Assembly (NCBI GenBank): GCA_000495735.1
Contig: AYMD01000009.1
Span: 96,575-160,574 of the forward strand
Direction: 5' to 3'
Length of the DNA: 64,000 nucleotides
Origin: an uncultured Acidilobus sp. JCHS
GTDB taxonomy: Archaea > Thermoproteota > Thermoprotei_A > Sulfolobales > Acidilobaceae
The first letter of the stretch is position 1, and every line of letters begins with the position of its first letter. Both the position numbers and the translations under genes were made by a program. Of the stretch, positions 38,503 through 39,905 are shown in pieces. The notes below the pieces were generated by a model. It was not told the origin of the DNA, did no database searches, and saw nothing but the letters and a program-made list of their open reading frames with translations.

Positions 38503-39039
38503 TCAGTCCATGACGGCTAGGACCGCTGACGCCTTGAGGGCCTCATCAACGTTCCTCGCTACATAAACCTTACCCCCGGTCTGGGCGGCTAACGACTCCA
38601 GCCTGGTCGCCTTTGAAGGCGTGGAGCCTGATATCAAGAGGGCGTCCACCCTTACGCTGTCAAGGGTCAGGAGAGGGACAAGGGACTCGGGGTCAAAGCC
38701 TTCGTTGTAGTCACCGTCAGTTATCAGGATAACCCTCTTATGATACCCTGCGGGGGCCCACTTGAGCATGAAGTAGGCGTCCTTGAGCGCCTCTGAGACG
38801 TTGGTGGCCTTCCCCATTACAGATATAGATGAAGCGGCCCTCTCCACCAGGTCCACGTTGTTCGTGAGGTCCACCAGCGGCATCGAGCGTCCATAAAACG
38901 CTATGAGCCCTATCAGGGTCGGGACGCCGCTACCTAGGGCTGACCTTGCTATCACAGAGGCGCTCCTCTTCGCGACCTCCATTCTGTTCGGCCTTACGTC
39001 CCTCAGGCTCATGCTGATGCTGGCGTCGATCGCTATCAC
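38503..39039 (-). CDS. Von Willebrand factor A domain protein
   Basis: A 178-residue single vWA domain with an N-terminal MIDAS motif DASISMS (Asp, Ser, Ser), a Thr in KATNVSEAL near residue 78, and ITDGDYNEG near residue 105. The frame is open upstream to 39096 and reads like a natural extension (IAKRFLGRAVVIAIDAS). No ATG, GTG or TTG occurs there, so GTG at 39039 is used; it has GGCAGGG upstream. A TATA-like ATTTAAATTTAA (minus) lies at 39098-39110. No MoxR-type ATPase accompanies it. Function is unknown. Confidence 0.8.
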   Translation of the reverse strand: MIAIDASISMSLRDVRPNRMEVAKRSASVIARSALGSGVPTLIGLIAFYGRSMPLVDLTNNVDLVERAASSISVMGKATNVSEALKDAYFMLKWAPAGYHKRVILITDGDYNEGFDPESLVPLLTLDSVRVDALLISGSTPSKATRLESLAAQTGGKVYVARNVDEALKASAVLAVMD

Positions 39040-39128: not shown

Positions 39129-39905
39129 CTAACCCAAGAGAGTCCTTGGTATCTGGAGCGGTATCGAGCCAAGCCTTCCAAGCAGGGACTTGAAGGTCTG
39201 CTCATCCAGTACCCCTACGTCCCTGCCCAGGACCAGGAGGGATACGCTAGGGGCCGCAGGAACTCCGTGAACCTTGGCAACCTGCCTGGTCCTCTTGTCA
39301 TCGCTTAGCAGGACGCCGTTCATCTTCTTAGCAAGGTATATGGCGTGGGACTCCTGGAGGGATATCCCGTTCTTCCGGGAGAACTCAGCCAGGCTCTTGT
39401 TCACCCTCATGACCTCAACGCCATCCATGACCACTATGAGGCCCCTCATCTTTGAGAACCTGAGCAGGAGCGCCTGCGCCCTCTCCTGAACCTTGTCTGG
39501 GACCACGAACCTCTTGTTCAGCTTAGGCAGGTAACTGAACAGGTTGAGCTCAAGCATAACATATAGTGAGGACAGGTCCAGGACCACCAGTCCCTTATCC
39601 CTGAGCGCCTTGACCCCCTCATTGACCTCTTCGTCGGAGTCGGCGCCCAGCTGCGGCGGAGTGTCATGCGATAGGAAGAACCATATTAGCTCATCCATGC
39701 TTATCCCACTTATGTCAACGGCTAGCTGGAAGCTTATGCCCCCGTTCTTGAACGCTCTGAGGGACAGGTCCTTCAGGTCATAGCTTTCAACCAGCCTTCT
39801 GACGGCCTCCCTGATGGCCTCGGTTTTGCTGCTGTAAAGCCCTGCCCTCACGAGCGCCTCGAGAAGGTCTTCTATGTAGCCGCTTATCTCTATTGTTGTT
39901 ACCAC
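39129..39905 (-). CDS. RHH antitoxin-PIN toxin fusion protein
   Basis: A single 258-residue chain that looks like a joined toxin-antitoxin pair. Residues 1-50 form a ribbon-helix-helix (VTTIEISGYIEDLLEALVRA, then SKTEAIREAVRRLVE). Residues 50-80 resemble the UPF0175 type of antitoxin (FQLAVDISGISMDELIWFF). Residues about 103-235 are a PIN-like domain with an Asp in VVLDLSSL, a Glu in LQESHAIYLAKKM, and LLSDDKRTRQVAKVHGVP, so the acidic site seems largely intact. The GTG start is at 39905. An RNase kept in check by its own DNA-binding domain, or a DNA-targeted regulator, would both fit. Confidence 0.75.
   Translation of the reverse strand: MVTTIEISGYIEDLLEALVRAGLYSSKTEAIREAVRRLVESYDLKDLSLRAFKNGGISFQLAVDISGISMDELIWFFLSHDTPPQLGADSDEEVNEGVKALRDKGLVVLDLSSLYVMLELNLFSYLPKLNKRFVVPDKVQERAQALLLRFSKMRGLIVVMDGVEVMRVNKSLAEFSRKNGISLQESHAIYLAKKMNGVLLSDDKRTRQVAKVHGVPAAPSVSLLVLGRDVGVLDEQTFKSLLGRLGSIPLQIPRTLLG

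Follow-up and report, generated by a model that had tools for sequence, protein, structure and literature searches.

We identified a three-domain fusion protein, composed of RHH, helix-turn-helix (HTH) and PIN domains and encoded next to a vWA gene, in the genome of an uncultured Acidilobus sp. JCHS (archaeal, 1.48 Mb, 99.4% complete). The window that we analysed is a 64,000-nucleotide stretch of contig AYMD01000009.1, in which the fused reading frame occupies positions 39129-39905 on the minus strand and encodes 258 aa from a GTG start codon; the plus strand at the same positions is interrupted by stop codons. The architecture of the protein, the age and single-copy state of the fusion, its co-inheritance with the vWA gene and the frequent linkage of this pair to genes for large secreted proteins are shown here. 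The protein is of a known kind, but its partner and neighbourhood are unexpected. We give an even chance to the reading that it is a domesticated regulator with presumed DNA-binding and RNA-processing activities, which would work with its vWA partner and probably act on cell-surface genes.

Domain architecture of the fusion protein

The RHH domain spans residues 1-43 (39777..39905, minus strand) and was assigned through Pfam VapB/ParD/RHH matches, ParD-type antitoxins in the PDB and residue conservation. The Pfam VapB_antitoxin model matched the N-terminus with E-values of 9e-5 to 5e-4, slightly short of the curated cut-off, the ParD and RHH_1 models matched the N-terminus in relatives, and the PDB search returned the ParD-type antitoxins 6x0a and 5ceg (E 2e-5 to 4e-5). 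Across homologues, E29 and R32 are invariant and R36 is almost so. The RHH signature was present in both the Pfam and PDB comparisons, and binding to DNA is predicted from it.

A UPF0175-type HTH follows at residues 44-98 (39612..39776, minus strand), delimited by hhalign comparison with split antitoxins and by predicted helices; the UPF0175 Pfam model matched weakly in 8 of 29 fusion family members. The remainder, residues 99-258 (39132..39611, minus strand), is a DUF3368-type PIN domain according to hhalign against split toxins, Foldseek and the Pfam family PF20698 (PIN-TPR-GreABC; residues 108-211, E 2.2e-8), while the Pfam DUF3368 model itself did not match the fusion. An AlphaFold2 model built with 29 homologues (pLDDT 91.6, pTM 0.84) placed RHH helices at residues 10-20 and 27-41, further helices at 44-55, 59-66 and 70-79, and then an alternating PIN fold. 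The best Foldseek matches of this model were the PIN proteins SSO1118 (2mdt) and PAE2754 (1v8p, 1v8o) with a probability of 1.00, and AF0591 (1o4w) was matched as well, so that the PIN fold is supported by both methods. The initial annotation, made from the sequence, had proposed an RHH domain, a UPF0175-like middle part and a PIN domain with its acidic residues in the expected order, and had named a missing PIN fold or a lack of clustered acids as evidence against it; Pfam, hhalign, AlphaFold2, Foldseek and conservation bear the proposal out, with the PIN fold and D110, E185 and D203 all present. A chance reading frame or a frameshift was ruled out by 56 full-length homologues.

Relationship to split UPF0175-DUF3368 pairs

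Split UPF0175-DUF3368 pairs are present in roughly half of the searched relatives and in none from the window's genus. In hhalign comparisons, fusion residues 41-98 matched the split UPF0175 antitoxins with a probability of 95.5 (E 1.6e-8), and residues 99-258 matched the split DUF3368 toxins over 144 columns with a probability of 98.2 (E 4.7e-14). The crossed controls failed, at 7% for residues 1-98 against the toxins and 1% for the other cross. Since each half aligns with its counterpart in the split pair and the crosses do not, we assign the fusion, on profile similarity, to the UPF0175-DUF3368 type, with both members in one chain and an RHH domain in front. The initial annotation had described a fusion of VapB-like and VapC-like parts; the placement of antitoxin and PIN parts in one frame stands, but the halves correspond to a UPF0175-DUF3368 pair plus an extra RHH domain. 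A role for COG2886/UPF0175 as a PIN antitoxin had already been suggested (PMC2701414). The fusion differs from the two-gene pair in being one open reading frame of 258 aa, the same in 56 genomes.

Distribution and inheritance

The initial annotation had suggested looking for the fusion in related genomes. Within the class, 56 of 229 genomes carry it in full-length or near-full-length form, one copy each. The families concerned are that of the window, three others in its order (f7, f9 and f10) and three outside it (f12, f13 and f15); relatives with fusion loci are named as Acidilobaceae, Caldisphaera and Desulfurococcales, and the f15 records as Marsarchaeota. Further matches in a phylum-wide draw were weak or partial only. 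A contig search with an alignment as query recovered 35 loci, whereas the same search with a single sequence gave no match. Aligned family members are 25-58% identical to the window protein. The fusion is missing from some genomes of fusion-bearing genera, for example in g13 and g30.

Because each genome carries one copy and genera group together in the fusion tree, we conclude that the gene is inherited and is not a mobile module. Its single copy, its agreement with taxonomy and its fixed partner (see below) make it unlike a selfish addiction module. The fusion is both old and real.

The vWA partner gene

At all 50 loci with sequence downstream of the fusion, the next gene on the same strand encodes a vWA protein, and the two genes commonly overlap by 4-30 bases. 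In the window, this gene lies at 38503..39039 (minus strand) and encodes 178 aa (VWA_2, E 4.7e-14; AlphaFold2 pLDDT 96.2), with the MIDAS motif DASIS at residues 5-9 and the second MIDAS Asp at D108. The MIDAS residues (DxSxS and D) are intact in 49 of 50 partner proteins; at 30 loci, there is a second vWA gene that lacks the MIDAS. The neighbour had initially been described as an orphan vWA gene on the same strand: the strand is right, but the gene is no orphan.

Pairwise distances in the fusion and vWA trees were correlated (r 0.77, compared with a maximum of 0.19 in 500 shuffles). Part of this mirroring reflects vertical descent common to both genes, which in any case have stayed together. 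Since the flanking genes vary between genera, what is conserved is the pair, and the vWA gene is the fixed partner of the fusion. The apparent lack of a vWA gene in L112 was an artefact of reading frame picking, and the gene is present there. The vWA reading frame in the window starts with GTG at 39039, and its homologues are about 10-20 residues longer at the N-terminus; matching in-frame sequence lies upstream of this GTG, without a standard start codon.

Genes adjoining the fusion-vWA pair

In 34 of 52 loci, a gene for a large secreted coiled-coil protein, one for a secreted subtilase, or both lie next to the pair; this count was made by reading the locus table, and contig ends truncate some of these neighbours. 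The first, a stalk-like protein, is roughly 870-1,550 aa long and has a coiled coil and a C-terminal membrane segment; the second has about 1,300 aa and matches the Pfam subtilase family (S8) at E 1e-31. Signal peptides, coiled coils and C-terminal membrane segments were recognized from sequence, and Pfam returned coiled-coil-like and S8 matches. Both neighbours resemble the stalk and subtilase proteins of crenarchaeal surface layers. The name 'S-layer' is used here on the basis of size, signal peptide, coiled coil, C-terminal membrane anchor and subtilase neighbour, and a location at the cell surface is predicted. No sequence match to a solved tetrabrachion stalk was obtained at E 0.1, and we rejected the identification of the stalk-like protein as tetrabrachion.

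Strong homologues of the stalk protein (E at most 1e-30) were found in 35 of 56 fusion-bearing genomes compared with 1 of 173 others. For the window's family alone, the counts are 24 of 35 genomes with the fusion and 0 of 13 without it. These contrasts are biased upwards because the profile derives from genes next to the fusion and because linked genes drop out of incomplete MAGs together. In the sole exception, G125, which has a stalk homologue without a fusion, the subtilase match begins 156 bases from a contig end, which is where the fusion would be expected.

The pair is also kept without clear stalk or subtilase genes, namely in the window's genus, in genus g5 and, outside the order, in families f13 and f15. 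Neither the stalk-like nor the subtilase gene was detected in the window's genome, in which the pair lies between moeA and a ribosomal protein operon, as it does in the two congeners examined. At four f15 loci (L124-L126 and L130), the pair is followed by a gene for a secreted protein of about 300 aa that has a membrane segment at its C-terminus; the L125 protein, the one searched against Pfam, had no match.

In L107, L112, L113, L121, L173 and L183, genes for the stalk-like protein, the subtilase of about 1,300 aa, the fusion, the vWA protein and a degenerate vWA protein lie in a row. This five-gene cassette is a candidate surface-layer operon of Desulfurococcales and Acidilobaceae. The subtilase is also found, in diverged form, where the fusion is missing; one such genome is G109, which belongs to the same genus as G053. 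Both are single-contig genomes, and the contrast between the fusion-bearing cassette of G053 and the diverged subtilase of G109 gives the impression of an exchange of surface-layer cassettes.

We also looked for a conserved operator and found none. An upstream inverted repeat, CAGTTcgtaAACTG, was considered as an operator of the gene and discarded, as it is absent from congeners. Promoter and terminator scans yielded no more than shuffled sequences.

Active site of the PIN domain

Conservation of the PIN acids was scored in 50 full-length fusion homologues. The first acid, D110 (codon 39576..39578, minus strand), is acidic in 49 of 50, while the third and fourth, E185 (39351..39353, minus strand) and D203 (39297..39299, minus strand), are E and D, respectively, in 50/50 fused proteins and 21/21 split toxins. 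The second acid was compared in a joint alignment of 21 split DUF3368 toxins and 30 fused proteins: its canonical position is R142 in the window protein (39480..39482, minus strand) and holds E in all 21 split toxins compared with 2 of the 30 fused proteins. Of the full PIN set (D1/N1, E2, E3, D4), the fusion has thus lost the second member. As for the first acid, D is found in 30/30 fused proteins, and among the separate DUF3368 toxins (L031-L057), N takes its place in 12 of 21. Metal binding through the three retained acids D110, E185 and D203 is plausible. With the second acid gone, there is less reason to assume ordinary nuclease activity, and standard activity of the fused PIN domain is not assured.

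These residues bear on two alternatives to a domesticated regulator. The fusion might be a single-chain toxin-antitoxin in the manner of EzeT or CapRel, in which the N-terminal part would inhibit the PIN domain in cis, stress or a virus would free it, and the vWA protein would be the sensor. The antitoxin-toxin order within one chain, the three retained acids, the precedent of known single-chain toxin-antitoxins (PMC4826407) and a match of the PIN part to the PADLOC candidate defence models PDC-S70 are consistent with such a toxin, but the gene is single-copy, follows taxonomy and is conserved beside vWA and secreted-protein genes rather than defence genes, and its second PIN acid is gone; we consider this explanation rather unlikely, at about one chance in four. 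Somewhat less probable still is a catalytically dead PIN part that would serve as a structural or RNA-binding domain of an RHH transcription regulator. The absence of the second canonical acid from 28 of 30 fused proteins and its presence in every split toxin point that way, as does the fact that RHH residues are among the best conserved; yet D110, E185 and D203 are retained in 49-50 of 50 homologues, even though aligned family members share only 25-58% identity with the window protein, and such retention would be difficult to account for if the domain neither bound metal nor had catalytic activity.

Discussion

Four points go beyond the initial annotation: conservation across several families, a fixed vWA partner, surface-layer-type neighbours in relatives and the loss of the second PIN acid. 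For the domesticated regulator that we favour, we envisage the following course. A UPF0175-DUF3368 toxin-antitoxin pair would have been fused, extended by an additional N-terminal RHH domain and domesticated. The RHH domain, perhaps with the HTH, would dimerise and bind operator DNA, while the PIN domain, restrained within the chain, would process or bind RNA, possibly with altered catalysis owing to the lost acid. The MIDAS-bearing vWA protein may, as a metal-dependent binding partner, attach to the fusion and set its state, and in most lineages the output would be how strongly cell-surface genes are expressed. The pair in the window's genus would have moved from surface genes to the site between moeA and the ribosomal operon, where it may act in trans. 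Such a history suggests that a former stress or selfish module became a housekeeping control device. A narrower version, in which the fused pair and the vWA gene were captured as the dedicated regulator of a surface-layer cassette and provide post-transcriptional control of the archaeal cell wall in Thermoproteota, is tentative, and we would put it at somewhat under one chance in three. That the pair acts on secretion or assembly of surface proteins instead of gene expression, with the vWA protein as the main actor, is very improbable: secreted-protein genes do adjoin the pair in most loci and vWA proteins work in multi-subunit complexes (PMC5898192), but an RHH-HTH-PIN partner points to nucleic acids, and neither protein has an obvious signal peptide or membrane segment on inspection of the sequences by eye.

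It appears that a toxin-antitoxin pair was joined into a single gene, acquired a new partner and was retained in the chromosome like any ordinary gene across several archaeal families. If the surface-layer link is functional, the pair would be a candidate for how these archaea regulate their own wall, and it would illustrate domestication clearly, with an active-site change that can be measured. Our searches of open-licence papers turned up no account of the fusion or of a vWA gene paired with it.

Several known systems can be set beside the fusion. The surface layer of Staphylothermus includes the tetrabrachion stalk protein and the STABLE protease (PMC5744192). There, as among the neighbours described here, a large stalk-like coiled-coil protein anchored in the membrane at its C-terminus is paired with a secreted subtilase of about 1,300 aa; this likeness is one of architecture only, and those neighbours were not detected in the window's genome. 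ArnB is a vWA protein and archaellum repressor in Sulfolobus (cited in PMC5898192), and ArnA-ArnB, as presented there, similarly combines a vWA protein with a partner to control a surface structure in Thermoproteota, but that partner has an FHA domain, whereas the fusion is an RHH-HTH-PIN protein with a putative regulatory role; no protein named ArnB was among the solved-structure matches at E 0.001. EzeT (PMC4826407) and CapRel (PMC13423816) also carry antitoxin and toxin functions on one polypeptide, but they are bacterial, have other toxin folds and, in the descriptions consulted, are presented without a vWA partner. The ArnB and EzeT precedents are analogies and do not imply membership. 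VapBC systems with an RHH antitoxin share the RHH DNA-binding part and the PIN part, but they are separate genes, and the fusion has a PIN domain of the DUF3368 group, an extra HTH in between and a fixed vWA partner. UPF0175 (COG2886)-DUF3368 pairs have, by profile, homologous HTH and PIN parts in the same order and occur in related genomes; they consist of two genes instead of one, and the RHH domain is absent from the split antitoxins examined, whereas the fusion has shed the second PIN acid, is always accompanied by a vWA gene and is present in a single copy.
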